A DNA stretch of 38,960 nt, taken from Prevotella sp. (lineage in GTDB: Bacteria > Bacteroidota > Bacteroidia > Bacteroidales > Bacteroidaceae). The notes under the pieces were generated by a model. It was not told where the DNA came from and did no database searches. It saw nothing but the letters and a program-made list of their open reading frames with translations. The stretch covers positions 1 to 38,960 of the forward strand of contig JAFUSV010000005.1 in assembly GCA_017467565.1 (NCBI GenBank), in the 5' to 3' direction. Shown here one piece after another: positions 16,307 through 36,988 of this stretch (position 1 is the stretch's first letter; the number at the start of each line of letters is the position of its first letter). Both the position numbers and the translations under genes were made by a program.

Positions 16307-17150
16307 TACGATTATAACAAGCGTGCAGAACCCGAAGGTGAAGCACGTGCTGCTGCTGCAGCAGAAATCGGCCGAACGGCGCAGGGAGGGACTCTTCGTC
16401 GTGGAAGGACGGCGCGAACTGCAGCATTGCCTGGAGGGCGGCTACGAGGTGGACAGCATCTTCTGCTGTCAGGAACTGACTGAGGCCGATGACATGTTTA
16501 TGCAACAATTGGCAAATATCAATTCTCCGTTATCCATCGTAGACAAACGGGTCTACGAGCGGATGGCCTATCGGGGCAGTACCGAGGGGGTGGTGGCACT
16601 GGTCAGGACGAAGAGCCGCCGACTGGAGGACCTGCAGTTGGGCGAGCATCCGCTGATCATCGTGCTGGAGCGTGTGGAGAAACCCGGCAACCTGGGGGCT
16701 GTGCTGCGTAGCGCCGATGCGGCCAAGGCCGACGCCGTCATTGTATGCGACCCGCTGACCGACCTGTATAATCCCAATCTGATACGCTCGTCCATCGGCG
16801 CCATCTTCACTGTGCCTACTGTGGCCTGCTCGTCGGAGGAGTGTATCAGCTTTCTGAAGAAAAGGAATATCCGCATTCTGACGGCTCAGCTGCAGGATTC
16901 CCGTCTGTACTACGATACCGACATGAGGGAGGCCACGGCCATCGTTATGGGGACGGAGTCGACGGGGTTGACCAATCAGTGGCGCGAGGCTGCCGATGCC
17001 CATATCCGCATACCGATGTTGGGACGGCTCGACTCGCTGAACGTATCTGTCAGCGCCGCCATCCTGCTCTTTGAAGCAGTAAGACAAAGAGAGGTTGAGA
17101 GTTCTTTGCAAGCAAAGCGAGCAAAACTCGAGCGAAGAGTTAAGAATTAA
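16299..17150 (+). CDS. SpoU/TrmH-family RNA 2'-O-ribose methyltransferase
   Basis: The protein has 283 residues from ATG 16299 (an upstream GTG at 16287 is less likely). The N-terminal substrate-binding part SVQNPKVKHVLLLQQKSAER, then GLFVVEGRRELQHCL is followed by the three SPOUT knot motifs: LERVEKPGNLGAVLRSADAA, then AIVMGTESTGLT, then IRIPMLGRLDSLNVSVSAAI. It should methylate rRNA or tRNA ribose using S-adenosylmethionine; the target position cannot be told. The last ~20 residues (EVESSLQAKRAKLERRVKN) come from the repetitive DNA that fills the following spacer, and the normal family end is near FEAVRQR. Confidence 0.9.
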   Translation: MNDTIITSVQNPKVKHVLLLQQKSAERRREGLFVVEGRRELQHCLEGGYEVDSIFCCQELTEADDMFMQQLANINSPLSIVDKRVYERMAYRGSTEGVVALVRTKSRRLEDLQLGEHPLIIVLERVEKPGNLGAVLRSADAAKADAVIVCDPLTDLYNPNLIRSSIGAIFTVPTVACSSEECISFLKKRNIRILTAQLQDSRLYYDTDMREATAIVMGTESTGLTNQWREAADAHIRIPMLGRLDSLNVSVSAAILLFEAVRQREVESSLQAKRAKLERRVKN

Positions 17151-17328
17151 GAGGTGTTGCCCTTTGGGCAATTAAGAATTAAGAGTTAAGAATTAAGAGG
17201 TGTCGCCTACGGCGAGTAAGAATTATAAATTAAGAATTAAGAATTATGCATTAAGAATTATGAATTATGCATTATGAATTATGCATCATGAATTATGCAT
17301 CATGCATTATGCATTATGCATTAAATAG
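17136..17328. repeat. TAAGAATTAAGAGG / GAATTATGCATTAT repeat tract, copy 1
   Basis: A dense mix of TAAGAATTAAG and GAATTATGCAT units contains two small hairpins: TTGCCC-TTT-GGGCAA at about 17157-17171 and TCGCC-TAC-GGCGA at about 17203-17215. It fills the whole spacer between two genes and intrudes into the end of the methyltransferase frame. Confidence 0.8.
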
Positions 17329-18160: not shown

Positions 18161-19135
18161 ATGATGAGACGAAGTGACAAGAATGTATGGCGGCTGACGG
18201 CCTTGGCCTCGGCGATGCACTTCCTGGTAGACGGGGTGTGCGTCTGCTGCCTGTATCAGCTGACGTTTCCCTTCAGCATCCCACATCTGTTGGCCATCTT
18301 CATGGCCTACAACGTGCTGGCCTTCCTCACGCAGCCGCTGACGGGTTGGGTGGCCGACCGCCTGCGTCATCGCCACTGGATGCTGTTCGCCTCGGTGCTG
18401 TTGCTCGGCCTGGCCGTGCTGTCGAGTGCCGTCATCACGTCGATAGCATCGCTGCAAGGCTCTGCGGTCGCCATGTTTGCCGTGGCCTCGCTGCTGGGCA
18501 TCGGCAACTCCCTGTTCCATGTGTGGGGCGGCAAGGAGACAGCCGTGAAGACTGGCAACGACATGCGTGCCCTCGGTGTGTTTGTGGCTACAGGCGTCAT
18601 GGGACTCACCATCGGTTTCCTCTACTATTCGTGGATGTTGCTCATCCTGCTGTTGCTGTTGGTGTGCATGATGGCAGCAGGCTACATCTGGCTGGACACG
18701 ACGCCTCTGGACGACCGTCGCCGACCAGCTGGCCACCCCCGGCAGGGATGGCTGTTGGCTGCGCTGGCTCTGCTCCTTATCATGGCTGTCGTCATGCTGC
18801 GCTCGTTTGTAGGCAGCGTGCTGTCAGCAGGCATGATGCGGGGCGAACAGATAGCCCTGCTCGTAGGACTGACGGCCATGCTGGGAAAGATGGCAGGCGG
18901 ATGGCTGGCCCGCTGGATGGGCCTTGTCGTCGCCCTCGGAGTGATGGTGGCGGTCGTCGTCGCCTGTGTCGTGCTGAAGACGGCTTCGCCCGTCGTACCC
19001 TTCATAGGGCTCTTCGCCGTCAACTGTACCATGCCTATCACGCTCTACCTGGCCAACCTGGTGCTGCCCGGACGCGAAGGCCTGGCCTTCGGCCTGCTGG
19101 CTGCCGCCCTGATGCCAGGATACCTTTTGAGTTAA
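18161..19135 (+). CDS. MFS-like multi-pass transporter
   Basis: The protein has 324 residues and about ten hydrophobic segments. The N-terminal LTALASAMHFLVDGVCVCCL and the loop QPLTGWVADRLRHRHWML look like the MFS signature between helices 2 and 3. GNSLFHVWGGKETAVKTGND is also conserved in related proteins. The substrate is unknown. It is shorter than a 12-TM MFS. Its frame stops (GYLLS) precisely at the start of a repeat tract, so the original C-terminus may have been altered. Confidence 0.8.
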   Translation: MMRRSDKNVWRLTALASAMHFLVDGVCVCCLYQLTFPFSIPHLLAIFMAYNVLAFLTQPLTGWVADRLRHRHWMLFASVLLLGLAVLSSAVITSIASLQGSAVAMFAVASLLGIGNSLFHVWGGKETAVKTGNDMRALGVFVATGVMGLTIGFLYYSWMLLILLLLLVCMMAAGYIWLDTTPLDDRRRPAGHPRQGWLLAALALLLIMAVVMLRSFVGSVLSAGMMRGEQIALLVGLTAMLGKMAGGWLARWMGLVVALGVMVAVVVACVVLKTASPVVPFIGLFAVNCTMPITLYLANLVLPGREGLAFGLLAAALMPGYLLS

Positions 19136-19253
19136 GAATTTAGAATTAAGAGTGGTCGCCTTTGGCGATTATGAATTATGCATTATGAATTATGCATTAT
19201 GAATTATGCATTATGAATTATTAATTATTAATTGTGAATTATGAATTATGCAT
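19133..19253. repeat. TAAGAATTAAGAG / GAATTATGCATTAT repeat tract, copy 2
   Basis: It has the same composition as 17136-17328, including the small hairpin TCGCC-TTT-GGCGA (about 19156-19168) and repeated GAATTATGCATTAT. It supplies the MNYAL codons of the following gene. Confidence 0.8.
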
Positions 19254-32248: not shown

Positions 32249-32383
32249 GACCCCACCCCTGCCCCATTCCCGAGCGAAGCTCGCCTACCCGTAGCCTTTC
32301 CCCTACAAGGGAGGGGAGCGGCTACCGCCATCCTATCCGCAGGGACTCCCCTCCCTTGTAGGGGAGGGGCAGGGGTGGGGTCA
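32249..32383. repeat. MITE-like inverted element, copy 1 (GACCCCACCCCTGCCCC ends)
   Basis: The ends GACCCCACCCCTGCCCC and GGGGCAGGGGTGGGGTC are perfect inverted repeats. An inner pair, CCCCTACAAGGGAGGGGAG with CTCCCCTCCCTTGTAGGGG, is also inverted. It is about 135 bp and lies in the untranslated leader of the Sel1 operon. Related elements are at 34848-34994 and 36066-36203. Confidence 0.82.
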
Positions 32384-32491: not shown

Positions 32492-32523
32492 TTTGTTTAT
32501 TTGGAAGAAAAGTTATACTTTTG
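32492..32523 (+). promoter_or_regulatory. Promoter of the aromatic amino-acid operon
   Basis: TTTG (32492-32495), a 20-nt spacer and TACTTTTG (32516-32523) match the Bacteroidota consensus exactly. Transcription should begin near 32530, about 35 nt before the leader peptide. Confidence 0.85.
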
Positions 32524-32563
32524 CACACCAAACGGAATAAAAATCGAACAAAAACAAGACGAC

Positions 32564-32620
32564 ATGATGAATCTTAACGCATACTTTTACTTCTACTTTT
32601 ACTTTGCAAAGACATTGTGA
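32564..32620 (+). CDS. Phe/Tyr attenuator leader peptide
   Basis: The 18-codon frame encodes MMNLNAYFYFYFYFAKTL (ATG 32567 is an alternative start). Eight consecutive codons alternate Tyr and Phe (TAC and TTT/TTC). It lies between a promoter and a terminator upstream of pheA. The stop codon sits inside the antiterminator arm (32616-32626), the position needed for a ribosome reaching the stop to block antitermination. It works in cis through ribosome stalling when charged tRNA-Phe or tRNA-Tyr runs short; the peptide itself needs no function. Confidence 0.88.
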   Translation: MMNLNAYFYFYFYFAKTL

Positions 32621-32697
32621 AGCGGATGGTTGTGTATGGTTACAGAAGGATAAAGCATAAGGGCTCCGCTTCACAGTCAAGTGAAAGTGGAGCCCTT
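32616..32697 (+). promoter_or_regulatory. Ribosome-mediated attenuator of the pheA operon
   Basis: Antiterminator: TGTGAAGCGGA (32616-32626) is a perfect 11-bp match to TCCGCTTCACA (32665-32675). Terminator: AAGGGCTCC (32659-32667) pairs with GGAGCCCTT (32689-32697), and TTCAC/GTGAA extends the stem across an internal loop. The two stems share bases 32665-32674 and cannot coexist. The T tract is weak (TTCATTAT). A stalled ribosome on the Tyr/Phe codons frees the first arm and permits read-through; a ribosome at the stop covers it and permits termination. Confidence 0.85.
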
Positions 32698-32704
32698 CAT
32701 TATA
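32659..32704 (+). terminator. Attenuator terminator hairpin upstream of pheA
   Basis: AAGGGCTCC/GGAGCCCTT plus the TTCAC/GTGAA inner stem, loop of about 6 nt, followed by CATTATAATG. It ends about 40 nt before the pheA start. Confidence 0.78.
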
Positions 32705-32738
32705 ATGAATAATTGATAATGTATAATTGATAATTACG

Positions 32739-33569
32739 ATGAAACGGATAGCGATACAGGGGGAGATAGGTTCCTTCCATGACATAGCAGTACATCAGTA
32801 CTTTGCCAATGAGCAGATACAGCTCATCTGCTGTAGCACGTTCGAGCAAGTGTTCAGGGCCGTCAGCGACGATCCTACGGTGATAGCCATGACTGCCATC
32901 GAGAATACCATAGCGGGCTCGCTGCTGCACAACTATGAACTGTTGCGCGACAGCGGGGTCACCGTGGTGGGCGAGCATAAGCTGCACATCACCCACTGCA
33001 TCTGTTGCCTGCCTGAAGACGACTGGACGACCATCTCGGAGGTGCACTCCCATCCTGTGGCACTGATGCAGACGCGCCACTATCTGGCGCATCACCCTGA
33101 ACTGCGCGTGGTAGAGGCCGAGGACACGGCGGGTGCTGCCAAGATGATAGCCGAGGGACGGCATCGCGGATGGGCTGCCATCTGCCATGCTGAGGCAGCG
33201 CGCCTCTACGGTCTGAAGATACTCGAAGACGGCATAGAGGACAACAAGCACAACTACACCCGATTCCTGGTGTGCTCAGCCCCTCAGAAGGCCGACCTGC
33301 TGCGCCCGCTGGTAGAAGCCGACAAGTCGAGCATCGTCTTCTCGCTGCCTCACGAGGAAGGGTCGCTCTCGGCCGTGCTGGCCATCCTGTCGTTCTACAA
33401 GATTAACCTGACGAAGATACAGTCGCTGCCCATCATTGGGCGCGAGTGGGAGTACCTGTTCTATGTGGACGTGACGTACAGCGACCTGACCCGCTATCGC
33501 CAGAGCATCGACGCCATCATCCCGCTGACCCGCGACCTGAAGATACTGGGAGAGTATAGGGGGAATTAA
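32739..33569 (+). CDS. pheA: Prephenate dehydratase
   Basis: The protein has 276 residues from ATG 32739. It converts prephenate to phenylpyruvate in Phe synthesis. The catalytic domain has IAIQGEIGSFHDIAVHQYF at the N-terminus, the AIENTIAGSLLHNYELL block and the catalytic NYTRFLV (Thr-Arg-Phe). A C-terminal ACT domain follows from about residue 194 (SIVFSLPHEEGSLSAVLAIL). The usual Phe-binding ESRP motif reads QSLP here (INLTKIQSLPI). There is no fused chorismate mutase; that activity is on the DAHP synthase two genes on. It is the first structural gene after the attenuator. Confidence 0.93.
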   Translation: MKRIAIQGEIGSFHDIAVHQYFANEQIQLICCSTFEQVFRAVSDDPTVIAMTAIENTIAGSLLHNYELLRDSGVTVVGEHKLHITHCICCLPEDDWTTISEVHSHPVALMQTRHYLAHHPELRVVEAEDTAGAAKMIAEGRHRGWAAICHAEAARLYGLKILEDGIEDNKHNYTRFLVCSAPQKADLLRPLVEADKSSIVFSLPHEEGSLSAVLAILSFYKINLTKIQSLPIIGREWEYLFYVDVTYSDLTRYRQSIDAIIPLTRDLKILGEYRGN

Positions 33570-33672
33570 GAGTTAAGAGTTAAGAATTAAGAATTAAGAG
33601 GTGTCGCCTTCGGCGATTAAGAGTTAAGAATTAAGAATTGTCGCCTTTGGCGATTATGAATTAAGAATTATG
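33567..33672. repeat. TAAGAATTAAGAGG repeat tract, copy 3
   Basis: TAAGAATTAAG and TAAGAGTTAAG units carry two small hairpins, TCGCC-TTC-GGCGA (about 33603-33615) and TCGCC-TTT-GGCGA (about 33640-33652). It fills the pheA-aminotransferase spacer. Confidence 0.8.
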
Positions 33673-34884
33673 ATACAACCAGCAGATAGATTAAACTTAG
33701 TGAGCGAATATTACTTCAGCAGGAAGCTGAAGGAGGTGGCTCAGATGAATGCCGAAGGCAAGGACGTCATCAGCCTGGCCATCGGAAGTCCGGACATGCC
33801 GCCGTCGGAACGTACCGTGGAGCGGCTGTGCGAGGTGGCCCGCGACCCGTCGGCCCACGGCTACCAGCCCACGATGGGTACGACAGAGTTGCGCCAGGCG
33901 ATGGCTGCCTACTACGAGAAGACCTACGGCGTGGCTGTCGACGCAGCTACCGAGGTGCTGCCGCTCATCGGTTCGAAGGAGGGTATCCTCCACGTGACGC
34001 TTGCCTTCGTCAATCCTGGCGACACGGTGCTGGTGCCCAACCCGGGCTATCCCACCTACACGTCGCTCTCGAAGTTGCTGGGAGCCCGTGTGGAGTACTA
34101 CGACCTGAAGGAGGAGAACGGGTGGATGTCCGACTTCGACGATCTGTTCAAACGCGACCTGTCGCACGTCAAGCTGATGTGGACCAACTATACCCACATG
34201 CCGACAGGAACGCCAGCCAGCCAGGGACTCTACGACCGACTGGTAGAGCTGGCGCAGCGCAACCATTTCGTCATCATCAACGACAATCCCTATTCGCGCA
34301 TACTCAACGACCATCCGCTGTCCATCTTCAACGCCTGGCAGTGGTCTGACCGCAAGGGTGTGGCCCGCGACTACTGCATAGAGCTCAACTCGCTGTCCAA
34401 GAGCCACAACATGCCTGGCTGGCGTGTGGGCATGTGCGTCGCCAAGCCCCAGTTCATACAGTGGATACTGAAAGTGCAGTCGAACATCGAGAGCGGCATG
34501 TTCCGCGGCTTGCAGCTGGCTGCCGCCGAGGCACTGGAGGGCAACAGCGACGAGTGGCACCGGGAGTACAACGTCAACGTCTACCGCCGCCGGCGCCATC
34601 TGGCCGAGCAGATTATGCAGGCGCTGGACTGTACGTACAGCGAGAACCAGGTGGGCATGTTCCTCTGGGGGCGCATCCCTGAAAGATATAATCATGTGGA
34701 AGAGCTGACGGAGCACGTGCTCCACGAGGCCCGCGTGTTCATTACCCCCGGCTTCATCTTCGGTAGCAACGGCGAGCGCTACATCCGCATCTCGCTCTGC
34801 GCCAAGGAGGAGAAGATGCAGGAGGCTTTGCAGCGTATAATGGCCCACCCCCTGCCCCTCCCCAAGGGAGGGGAGCCTGAATAG
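33670..34884 (+). CDS. Class I/II pyridoxal-phosphate aminotransferase
   Basis: The protein has 404 residues. The fold-type I features are VISLAIGSPDMPPSERTVER, GYQPTMGTTELRQAMAAYYE, VPNPGYPTYTSLSKLLGA, NDNPYSRIL and the PLP-binding Lys in NSLSKSHNMPGWRVGMC (about residue 241). Given its place between pheA and the DAHP synthase gene, it probably transaminates phenylpyruvate and hydroxyphenylpyruvate; this is inferred from context. The last ~12 residues (HPLPLPKGGEPE) come from the MITE-like element that begins at 34848. Confidence 0.9.
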   Translation: MIQPADRLNLVSEYYFSRKLKEVAQMNAEGKDVISLAIGSPDMPPSERTVERLCEVARDPSAHGYQPTMGTTELRQAMAAYYEKTYGVAVDAATEVLPLIGSKEGILHVTLAFVNPGDTVLVPNPGYPTYTSLSKLLGARVEYYDLKEENGWMSDFDDLFKRDLSHVKLMWTNYTHMPTGTPASQGLYDRLVELAQRNHFVIINDNPYSRILNDHPLSIFNAWQWSDRKGVARDYCIELNSLSKSHNMPGWRVGMCVAKPQFIQWILKVQSNIESGMFRGLQLAAAEALEGNSDEWHREYNVNVYRRRRHLAEQIMQALDCTYSENQVGMFLWGRIPERYNHVEELTEHVLHEARVFITPGFIFGSNGERYIRISLCAKEEKMQEALQRIMAHPLPLPKGGEPE

Positions 34885-34994
34885 GCCTGGAGGTGGAATG
34901 AAGACAGAACTAATTAAACAAAAATAACACTAAAAAAAAGGAGACCCCAGTAGTAAACGAACTCCCCTCTCTTGGGGAGGAGTTGGGGGTAGGC
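34848..34994. repeat. MITE-like inverted element, copy 2
   Basis: CCCCTGCCCCTCCCCAAGGG (from about 34851) and its degraded inverse CTCCCCTCTCTTGGGGAGGA (from about 34963) flank about 80 bp of AT-rich sequence. The left end overlaps the aminotransferase stop region and the right end stops 2 bases before the next ATG. Confidence 0.78.
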
Positions 34995-34996
34995 TT

Positions 34997-36061
34997 ATGG
35001 AATTAGAACTTAAACCATTGAATTTGCCCAGCGACAACGAACGTCCGTTTGTCATAGCTGGTCCCTGCTCGGCCGAAACTGAGGAGCAAGTGATGACGAC
35101 AGCCCGCCAGCTGGCTATGAAGGGCTGCCACAATTTCCGTGCCGGCGTATGGAAACCGCGCACCAAGCCCGGCGGTTTCGAGGGCAACGGCGAGAAGGCG
35201 CTGCCCTGGATGCTGCAGGTGAAGAAAGAGACCGGCATGCTCATCTCTACCGAGGTGGCTACGCCCGAGCATGTGGAGCTGGCCCTGAAGTACGAGATGG
35301 ACATCCTGTGGATAGGAGCGCGCACGTCGGCCAATCCCTTTGCCATGCAGGCGCTGGCCGATGCGCTCAGGGGCGTCGATGTGCCGGTATTTGTGAAAAA
35401 CCCCGTCAACCCCGACCTGGAACTGTGGATAGGGGCCATGGAGCGTATCAATCAGGCCGGCGTCAAGCGTCTGGGAGCCATCCATCGCGGTTTCTCGTCC
35501 TACGACAAGAAAATCTACCGTAACATGCCCATGTGGCAGATACCCATCGAGCTCCACCGTCGCATACCCGAACTGCCTATCATCTGCGACCCCTCGCATA
35601 TCGGCGGACGTCGCGAGCTCATAGCCCCACTGTGCCAGCAGGCCATGGACCTGGGCTTCGACGGGCTCATCGTAGAGAGTCACTGCGACCCCGACAAGGC
35701 ATGGAGCGATGCTGCCCAGCAGGTGACACCCGACGTGCTGGACTACATCCTCTCGCTGCTGGTCATACGCGACGAGAAGGTCACCACCGAGGGCATACAG
35801 CAGCTGCGCAAGCAGATAGACGAGCTGGACAACCAGCTGATGGACCTGCTGGCCAAGCGTATGCGCGTATGCCGCGAGATAGGGCAGTACAAGAAGGAGC
35901 ACAACATGACCGTGCTGCAGGCCAACCGCTACAACGAGATACTCTCCAAGCGCGGCGCCCAGGGCTCGCTCTGCGGCATGGCCCCCGACTTCGTGGCCCG
36001 CGTCTTCGAGAACATACACGAGGAGAGCGTGCGCCAGCAGATAGAGATTATCAATCAGTAG
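34997..36061 (+). CDS. aroF: Bifunctional DAHP synthase / chorismate mutase (type II)
   Basis: The protein has 354 residues. Residues 1-260 are a type I-beta (KDO8P-synthase-like) DAHP synthase: FVIAGPCSAETEEQ, NFRAGVWKPRTKPGGFEGNG, WIGARTSANPFAMQALADAL, PVFVKNPVNPDLELWIGAME and CDPSHIGGRRELIAPL. Residues about 265-354 are an AroQ chorismate mutase (LRKQIDELDNQLMDLLAKRM, then CREIGQYKKEHNM). It catalyses the first shikimate step and chorismate to prephenate, feeding both pheA and tyrA in this operon. Both domains look intact. Confidence 0.95.
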   Translation: MELELKPLNLPSDNERPFVIAGPCSAETEEQVMTTARQLAMKGCHNFRAGVWKPRTKPGGFEGNGEKALPWMLQVKKETGMLISTEVATPEHVELALKYEMDILWIGARTSANPFAMQALADALRGVDVPVFVKNPVNPDLELWIGAMERINQAGVKRLGAIHRGFSSYDKKIYRNMPMWQIPIELHRRIPELPIICDPSHIGGRRELIAPLCQQAMDLGFDGLIVESHCDPDKAWSDAAQQVTPDVLDYILSLLVIRDEKVTTEGIQQLRKQIDELDNQLMDLLAKRMRVCREIGQYKKEHNMTVLQANRYNEILSKRGAQGSLCGMAPDFVARVFENIHEESVRQQIEIINQ

Positions 36062-36065
36062 CAGA

Positions 36066-36203
36066 CTCTCCCCCGACCCCTCCCTGGAGGGAGGGGAGTA
36101 GTCAGTTCTGATGCCAAATAGATTATAGATTAACAAATCAAGTAGATATTTCCCCGATAAGACTATCTACTCCCCTCCCTTAAGGGAGGGGCCGGGGGTG
36201 AGT
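36066..36203. repeat. MITE-like inverted element, copy 3
   Basis: Left CTCCCCCGACCCCTCCCTGG and right CTCCCCTCCCTTAAGGGAGG (from about 36171, then GGCCGGGGGTGAG) are inverted copies of one sequence, about 140 bp in total. It fills the spacer before tyrA and ends 8 bases from its ATG. Confidence 0.82.
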
Positions 36204-36211
36204 CTTCTTTT

Positions 36212-36988
36212 ATGAAAATATTAGTCATGGGAGCAGGCAAGATGGGGAGCTTCTTCATCGACCTGCTGAGTTTCGACCATGAGGTGGCCGTCTATGAGCG
36301 TGATGCCAGGCGCATGCGCTTCACGTACAACTGCCAGCGGTTCACAACTTACGACGAGATACGCGAGTTCCGGCCCGAGCTGGTCATCAATGCCGTCACG
36401 CTGAAATATACCATACCCGTGTTCCGCGAGCTGATACCCTGTCTGCCCAAGGAGTGCATCATCAGCGACATCGCCTCGGTGAAGACCGACCTCAAGGAGT
36501 TCTACGAGTCTACGGGCATGCGCTACGTATCGACCCACCCTATGTTCGGTCCTACGTTTGCCAACCTGCAGCAGCTCTCCGAGGAGAACGCCATCATCAT
36601 TAGCGAGGGCGACTACATGGGGCGCATCTTCTTCAAGGACCTCTACCAGAAGCTGGGGCTCAACATCTATGAGTACACCTTCGAGGAGCACGACCAGACG
36701 GTGGCCTACTCGCTCAGCATACCCTTCGTCTCCACCTTTGTCTTTGCCGCCGTCATGAAGCATCAGGATGCCCCCGGCACCACCTTCAAGCGCCACATGA
36801 AGATAGCCAAGGGTGTGCTTAGCGAGGACGACTACCTGCTGCAGGAGATACTCTTCAACCCCTACACCCACGACCAGGTGTCGCAGATACGCACCGAGCT
36901 GAAGGAGCTGCTGGAGATTATAGACCACAAGGACGGCCAGGGCATGAAGGCCTATCTCACCAAGATACGGCAGAACGTGGCGAAGTGA
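36212..36988 (+). CDS. tyrA: Prephenate dehydrogenase
   Basis: The protein has 258 residues. The Rossmann loop GAGKMG is at residues 7-12. STHPMFGPTFANL, with the substrate-binding His, and the EEHDQTVAYSLSIPFVSTFV segment are family hallmarks. It oxidises prephenate to 4-hydroxyphenylpyruvate for Tyr synthesis. There is no ACT or chorismate mutase domain, so it is the short form. It is the last gene of the operon, followed by two hairpins. Confidence 0.92.
   Translation: MKILVMGAGKMGSFFIDLLSFDHEVAVYERDARRMRFTYNCQRFTTYDEIREFRPELVINAVTLKYTIPVFRELIPCLPKECIISDIASVKTDLKEFYESTGMRYVSTHPMFGPTFANLQQLSEENAIIISEGDYMGRIFFKDLYQKLGLNIYEYTFEEHDQTVAYSLSIPFVSTFVFAAVMKHQDAPGTTFKRHMKIAKGVLSEDDYLLQEILFNPYTHDQVSQIRTELKELLEIIDHKDGQGMKAYLTKIRQNVAK

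Follow-up and report, generated by a model that had tools for sequence, protein, structure and literature searches.

A candidate ribosome-mediated attenuator with interleaved Tyr and Phe codons upstream of pheA in Prevotella and related Bacteroidia

The enterobacterial pheA leader is a Phe-only leader, and in the ilvGMEDA and thrABC leaders of E. coli one leader reports more than one end product. In the trp attenuator, as the passage devoted to it sets out, the control codons are located in segment 1, a 1:2 hairpin is combined with a pause, and the 2:3 and 3:4 pairings are mutually exclusive (PMC1183508). For Bacteroidota, the pertinent passages describe strong clues of leader-peptide attenuation in amino acid operons of Flavobacterium psychrophilum, published in 2021 (PMC9723704), mention short ORFs reminiscent of leaders in B. 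thetaiotaomicron (PMC7366714), and present the Bacteroid-trp RNA RF01692 as a cis-regulatory candidate of Bacteroidetes (PMC2864571).

In the window, by which we mean the whole 38,960-nucleotide stretch of Prevotella sp. DNA analysed, a locus on the plus strand in front of pheA contains the parts of such a switch. Very probably, it represents a ribosome-mediated transcription attenuator that would sense charged tRNA-Tyr and tRNA-Phe together. It opens with a Bacteroidota-type promoter sequence, TTTG-N20-TACTTTTG (32492..32523; TTTG at 32492-32495, TACTTTTG at 32516-32523), which we take to match the promoter consensus of this phylum. The promoter proposed in a first-pass annotation of this DNA is borne out by comparison, as the pattern TTKG-N17-23-TANNTTTG is present in 75 of 77 aligned loci, versus 47 of 4000 110-nt stretches drawn at random from the window. 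The leader peptide MMNLNAYFYFYFYFAKTL (ATGATG...TGA, 32564..32620) has 18 codons from the start at 32564 and 17 from an alternative start at 32567, and carries eight control codons, TAC TTT TAC TTC TAC TTT TAC TTT (32582..32605), in which Tyr and Phe alternate just as had been annotated. CTTTGCAA (32602-32609) pairs with TTGTGAAG (32615-32622) in a 1:2 hairpin (32602..32622), which is an addition to the annotation. Arm 2 of the antiterminator, TGTGAAGCGGA (32616..32626), and arm 3, TCCGCTTCACA (32665..32675), are perfect reverse complements, and the 11-bp antiterminator proposed earlier is therefore exact. The leader stop codon TGA (32618-32620) falls within arm 2. Arm 3 can pair either with arm 2 or with the 3' arm of the terminator hairpin 3:4 (32659..32697), and being common to both it renders antiterminator and terminator mutually exclusive. 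Predicted energies in the window are -5.2 kcal/mol for the 1:2 hairpin, -22.3 for the antiterminator and -24.9 for the terminator, and the region 32520-32710 folds with z = -2.89, with 2 of 200 shuffles folding equally well.

The first gene behind this element is pheA, encoding prephenate dehydratase (32739..33569; NCBIfam PRK11898.1, E 6.7e-58, 196 bits, under the curated cut-off of 219). It is followed by a PLP-dependent aminotransferase resembling LL-diaminopimelate aminotransferase (33670..34884; best NCBIfam E 9.8e-109, under the cut-off), by aroF/CM, a DAHP synthase-chorismate mutase fusion (34997..36061; the DAHP synthase part spans 14-252 and the chorismate mutase part about 265-348, both under their cut-offs), and by tyrA, encoding prephenate dehydrogenase (36212..36988; best NCBIfam E 1.7e-18, under the cut-off). 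All four are encoded on the plus strand, and the gene set thus makes both Phe and Tyr; it is probably transcribed as one unit. When other amino acid leaders were sought, hisG- or trpE-type families were not found in the window's own genome, which is 73% complete. Two kinds of repeats are present in the window. CTCCCCTCCCTT occurs in inverted pairs at 32307-32357, 34864-34973 and 36087-36181 (6 matches versus 0.15 expected), giving REP-like palindromes that adjoin or lie within the aromatic gene set, and GTTAAGAATTAAGAATT-like units form runs at 17139-17266, 19131-19147 and 33572-33669 (12 matches versus 0 expected), the last of which occupies the gap between pheA and the aminotransferase gene. 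Three genomes of the window's genus (G251, G287 and G331, rated 99% complete) have no pheA match at E 1e-20, possibly reflecting a loss of Phe synthesis.

According to the proposed mechanism, RNA polymerase would transcribe the leader and probably pause just behind the 1:2 hairpin, such that the ribosome can catch up. When Tyr or Phe is scarce, the ribosome would stall on the interleaved control codons and leave arm 2 free; the 2:3 pairing would then form and the polymerase would continue into pheA, the aminotransferase gene, aroF/CM and tyrA. When both are plentiful, the ribosome would reach or pass arm 2 and cover it, arm 3 would pair with arm 4, and transcription would end near 32700. Due to the alternation of Tyr and Phe codons, the first stall for either amino acid would occur at most one codon apart, as a switch of fixed geometry needs. 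When the transcript as it stands ahead of arm 4 synthesis was folded at equilibrium (n = 77), the predicted probability of the 2:3 pairing was 0.99 on average with the ribosome at the first control codon, and 0 with the ribosome at the stop, where arm 2 is covered and the pairing is excluded by construction. With no ribosome, the predicted mean was 0.73, with values below 0.5 in 22 of the 77 loci and 1.0 for the window, which suggests that, in the window's species, read-through would occur on a free leader.

The intergenic regions of the window are rich in short repeats, and it could be argued that the Phe/Tyr repeat was kept by chance or low complexity and has no switch function. Short ORFs with at least 7 F/Y in 10 codons, however, were found in 1 of 162 480-nt stretches of the window, this one being the leader itself, and in 0 of 408 further stretches from the loci; the looser threshold of at least 6 F/Y gave counts of 1 of 162 and 6 of 408. 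Given also the mutually exclusive stems and the covariation of the 1:2 and 3:4 hairpins described below, a chance origin is exceedingly improbable. Seven consecutive TWY codons occur three times in the window's genome, two of these overlapping within the leader and the third lying elsewhere, at a TTY run; as the reversed control pattern gave 4 hits, the TWY-run count is weak when taken alone.

The close set consists of the best 80 pheA-matching loci from Prevotella, Prevotellaceae, Bacteroidaceae and Bacteroidales together with the window, i.e. 81 loci. A Y/F-rich leader precedes pheA in 77 of these, window counted; three loci (L010, L027 and L030) are without leader, and L048 is truncated by a contig end, with arm and hairpin still visible and the leader not counted. 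Alignment and stem counts refer to the 77 leader-bearing loci, and relatedness is left in the shuffle controls. The 1:2 hairpin, CUUURCAA-loop-UUGUGAAG, is paired in 98.5% of 613 cells, its closing pair being A-U in 51 loci, G-C in 20, U-A in 1 and unpaired in 5, and its covariation score was reached by 0 of 500 shuffles. Terminator 3:4 is paired in 95.0% of 1068 cells and contains 57 double-change cells versus 19.9 in shuffles, a value that again 0 of 500 shuffles reach. The antiterminator, paired in 93.4% of 828 cells, is nearly invariant, and with 28 of 500 shuffles attaining the score, its covariation in the close set falls short of significance. Of the covariation that the first-pass annotation had proposed as a check on both exclusive stems, the terminator part thus holds; the antiterminator, which hardly varies, is supported by its complementarity in the wider sets. 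The competing terminator stem, present in the window and covarying in relatives, and the expected conservation of a Tyr/Phe-rich leader with its stems, are both substantiated. All 77 loci have TAC as their last Tyr codon and 75 of them TTT as their last Phe codon, and the earlier control codons vary, which is expected if the last ones double as segment 1. By eye, covariation seemed to support a longer 1:2 pairing, in which the first Ala-Tyr codons (GCWTAC) would pair with GTAWG behind arm 2; this was dropped, as wrong combinations were common and the counted columns misaligned. By eye, a clade with GAAGTTGCGTATAATTCAACTT (L049, L061, L071, L072 and L076) has a small additional hairpin, AAGTTG...CAACTT, immediately after arm 2, and the rows resembling L016 and L031 have CGTTG...CAACG.

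Arm 2 is translated as Cys-Glu-Ala in most leaders of the close set; in the window and in L020, L028 and L033 it stands in a different frame and the stop falls in arm 2. The frame was followed across all sets in those 166 of 242 leader loci in which GCGG lies within 40 nt of the control codons, leaving out the other 76. The GCGG arm is in frame 0 in 78, in frame 2 in 47 and in frame 1 in 6 of them, and in 35 the stop lies before or in the arm. Hence, the annotated stop codon within arm 2 is real in the window, but it is not the requirement that it was taken for, because 131 of the 166 leaders read into or through the arm. Arm 2 being found in several frames, or at or behind the stop, across lineages indicates that the RNA and not the peptide is kept. 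One might alternatively regard the leader peptide as the product, i.e. a small protein whose Y/F-rich sequence is recognisable across the whole class, and the hairpins as a plain promoter-proximal terminator. This is very unlikely, since past the control codons the same RNA lies in any of three frames or beyond the ORF, the stop is placed anywhere between -17 and +37 with respect to the arm, and the codon content tracks operon membership, as detailed below.

A further constraint consistent with an attenuator concerns a pyrimidine-G dinucleotide at positions 10-11 from the G of the arm-2 GCGG (32631..32632 in the window), which is present in 74 of 77 close loci and in 137 of 166 loci of the wide set (frame 0, 74 of 78; frame 2, 42 of 47; frame 1, 4 of 6; stop class, 17 of 35). 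It agrees with the elemental pause consensus, and RNA polymerase may well pause here. Conservation of this RNA whatever the reading frame thus points to a candidate site of polymerase pausing in a phylum whose transcription-translation coupling has, to our knowledge, been little studied. The position also matches that of the trp pause, which sits behind segment 2 according to the passage on that system (PMC1183508).

The U-tract that follows the terminator in the window, a second addition to the annotation, is poor, with 5 T of 10, and ranks among the ten lowest of the 77 loci. A simple terminator scan and a generic sigma-70 scan did not flag the element in the window. The poor U-tract suggests that the window's terminator may be leaky, and it could favor an alternative in which the same sensing leader controls translation, with the 3:4 hairpin or its neighbours masking the pheA start. 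However, a hairpin with a U-run (threshold 5 T in 9) is found at this place in 241 of 242 leader loci, though weak in the window, and the window's hairpin ends 41 nt ahead of the pheA ATG. Translational attenuation is therefore improbable, and an attenuator acting on transcription is the preferred reading.

Such attenuator-like leaders extend well beyond the close set. Wider sets upstream of pheA comprised 59 further genomes order-wide (two of the same family), 90 family-wide and 29 phylum-wide; the latter are the best-scoring of 137 matching genomes besides the window's own and, like a further 20 hand-picked genomes of the phylum search, no random draw, and species shared between the collections make the sets partly dependent on one another. 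Leaders precede pheA in 55 of 59 order-wide, 83 of 90 family-wide and 27 of 29 phylum-search loci. Leader and U-run hairpin occur together in 76 close, 55 order, 83 family and 27 phylum-search loci, L034 being the single leader locus in which no hairpin was found. Tested against 200 shuffles, the antiterminator pairs at p<=0.01 in 73, 49, 63 and 19 loci, respectively (204 of 259), and the mean antiterminator energy over 256 leaders is -18.5 compared with -8.9 when shuffled. The 55 loci that miss this threshold include 17 without leader, three of which have a short upstream stretch, 1 without hairpin and 37 with weaker pairing. In eight loci (L082, L089, L090, L092, L095, L099, L225 and L227), two leaders stand in series before pheA, each with its own hairpin and with antiterminator pairing at p<=0.02.

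Within the phylum-wide 29, 23 of 25 genomes of the same class have a leader, as do 4 of 4 from other classes (L234, L237, L239 and L255), whose Y/F-rich leaders are followed by a terminator and, in two cases, show antiterminator pairing at p<=0.01. Of the further 20 genomes, 5 belong to the class, 4 of them with a leader, and 15 to other classes, none of them with a leader, giving 27 of 30 and 4 of 19, respectively, for the combined search. The four leaders outside the class may reflect old inheritance, transfer or convergence. In the two genomes with leaderless pheA among the 25 (G421 and G456), aroF lies ahead of pheA, and G421 has a Y/F leader before this upstream aroF.

Rearranged operons provide a natural experiment on what the leader would sense. 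aroF was located in 159 of 178 genomes, leaving out 19 family genomes, and lies at most 5 kb behind pheA in 143, on another contig in 12, upstream in 2 and 8.4 kb away in 1, and was not found in 1. G281, in which the aminotransferase gene follows pheA up to the contig end, was counted as linked. Tyr and Phe codons were counted in the densest 12 codons, and where several leaders were present, the Tyr-richest was taken. Among the 144 genomes with linked pheA and aroF, 140 have a leader, always with at least 2 Tyr and at least 2 Phe codons; of the four without, G310 and G121 offer little sequence upstream of pheA, and G337 and G091 lack a leader despite sufficient upstream sequence. In the 12 genomes with split pheA, by contrast, five leaders are nearly Phe-only, with at most 1 Tyr in the control region (G018, G028, G038, G099 and G305), and seven genomes are without leader. 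The difference between linked and split genomes is significant by Fisher's test, with p 2e-9 uncorrected for phylogeny. The five genomes with nearly Phe-only leaders come from five different families, and the genus of G305 as well as the family of G018 also include linked genomes with mixed leaders. In G018, G028, G038 and G099, no aminotransferase, aroF or tyrA gene was found behind pheA within about 5 kb, and the low Tyr content in G305 was recorded before its operon status was known.

The split-off aroF genes show the reciprocal picture, as in all 11 resolved genomes their leader is mixed or Tyr-rich (G018, G028, G099, G108, G142, G248, G267, G300, G305, G329 and G340; G038 and G058 are outside this group). 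These leaders lie before the aminotransferase gene, except in G018, where the leader precedes a gene that resembles tyrA by eye (the window's TyrA gave no match in this genome at 1e-10); in G099, two leaders precede the split aminotransferase-aroF genes. The mean Tyr share is 0.43 in linked leaders (155) and 0.59 in split aroF leaders (11, leaving out the G248 leader, which is identical to that of G267), and it ranges from 0 to 0.18 in split pheA leaders (5). Two exceptions overlap this last range, namely linked G118, with a Tyr share of 0.17 and only two Tyr codons, and one of the two tandem leaders in linked G070, which is nearly Phe-only with a Tyr share of 0.11. This shift of leader codons with operon content is the strongest evidence for the proposed attenuator, and it supports the joint sensing of Tyr and Phe that had been predicted from the alternating codons.

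With some reserve, we favor a broader scenario in which the attenuator is at least as old as the Bacteroidia, extends to some further classes of the phylum, and has its codons rewritten upon operon rearrangement: joint operons would carry Tyr and Phe codons, a lone pheA would have a Phe-only leader or none, and a split aroF would have a mixed or Tyr-rich one. Some lineages would stack two complete attenuators, and in the window the untranslated leader would antiterminate, such that shut-off needs translation, unlike in trp. If true, the Bacteroidia, which are major members of gut and environmental communities, gain an amino acid sensing switch of the E. coli type. The split operons make the rule that leader codons mirror operon products testable across natural replicates, and the amino acids to which a rearranged operon responds could be predicted from its leader codons.

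Attenuation by leader peptides is an already known type of regulation; its Phe/Tyr version, its breadth and its apparent codon reprogramming were not found in the literature searched. The same search found no Tyr/Phe leader in Bacteroidota, and comparative attenuation studies by the Lyubetsky and Gelfand groups, outside its scope, could hold a pheA case from Bacteroidetes. At gathering score, Rfam gave 0 matches of any family in the window, including RF01692, T-box and other leaders, and none in 14 loci. The best match below threshold is RF01859 (Phe_leader), which aligns over its full length 1-125 at 32569-32703 with 23.9 bits and E 0.04-0.07, under the gathering score of 55. In 5 of 15 relatives tried, it scored 27.9-33.6 bits, likewise under 55, and there Leu_leader (up to 31.8 bits, cut-off 50) and Trp_leader score about equally, which indicates that the RF01859 match reflects the general layout.

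When compared with the described systems, RF01692 is, like the element in the window, a candidate from Bacteroidetes, yet the two differ to the extent that the window stays without RF01692 match at gathering score. The leaders of F. psychrophilum belong to the same phylum and also lie upstream of amino acid operons, but the passage concerned names neither a pheA case nor a Tyr/Phe leader (PMC9723704). The trp and his attenuators of E. coli and Salmonella have the same segment layout; in contrast to these, two amino acids would be sensed here, and since the window's 1:2 hairpin is weak relative to 2:3, its untranslated leader is predicted to read through, unlike that of trp. With the enterobacterial pheA leader (RF01859), the element has in common the gene, the leader peptide and the layout, whereas here Tyr and Phe codons alternate and the gene set also makes Tyr. 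Covering more than one end product with one leader is what it would share with ilvGMEDA and thrABC, from which it differs by the interleaving of Tyr and Phe codons, by the pathway and by the phylum.
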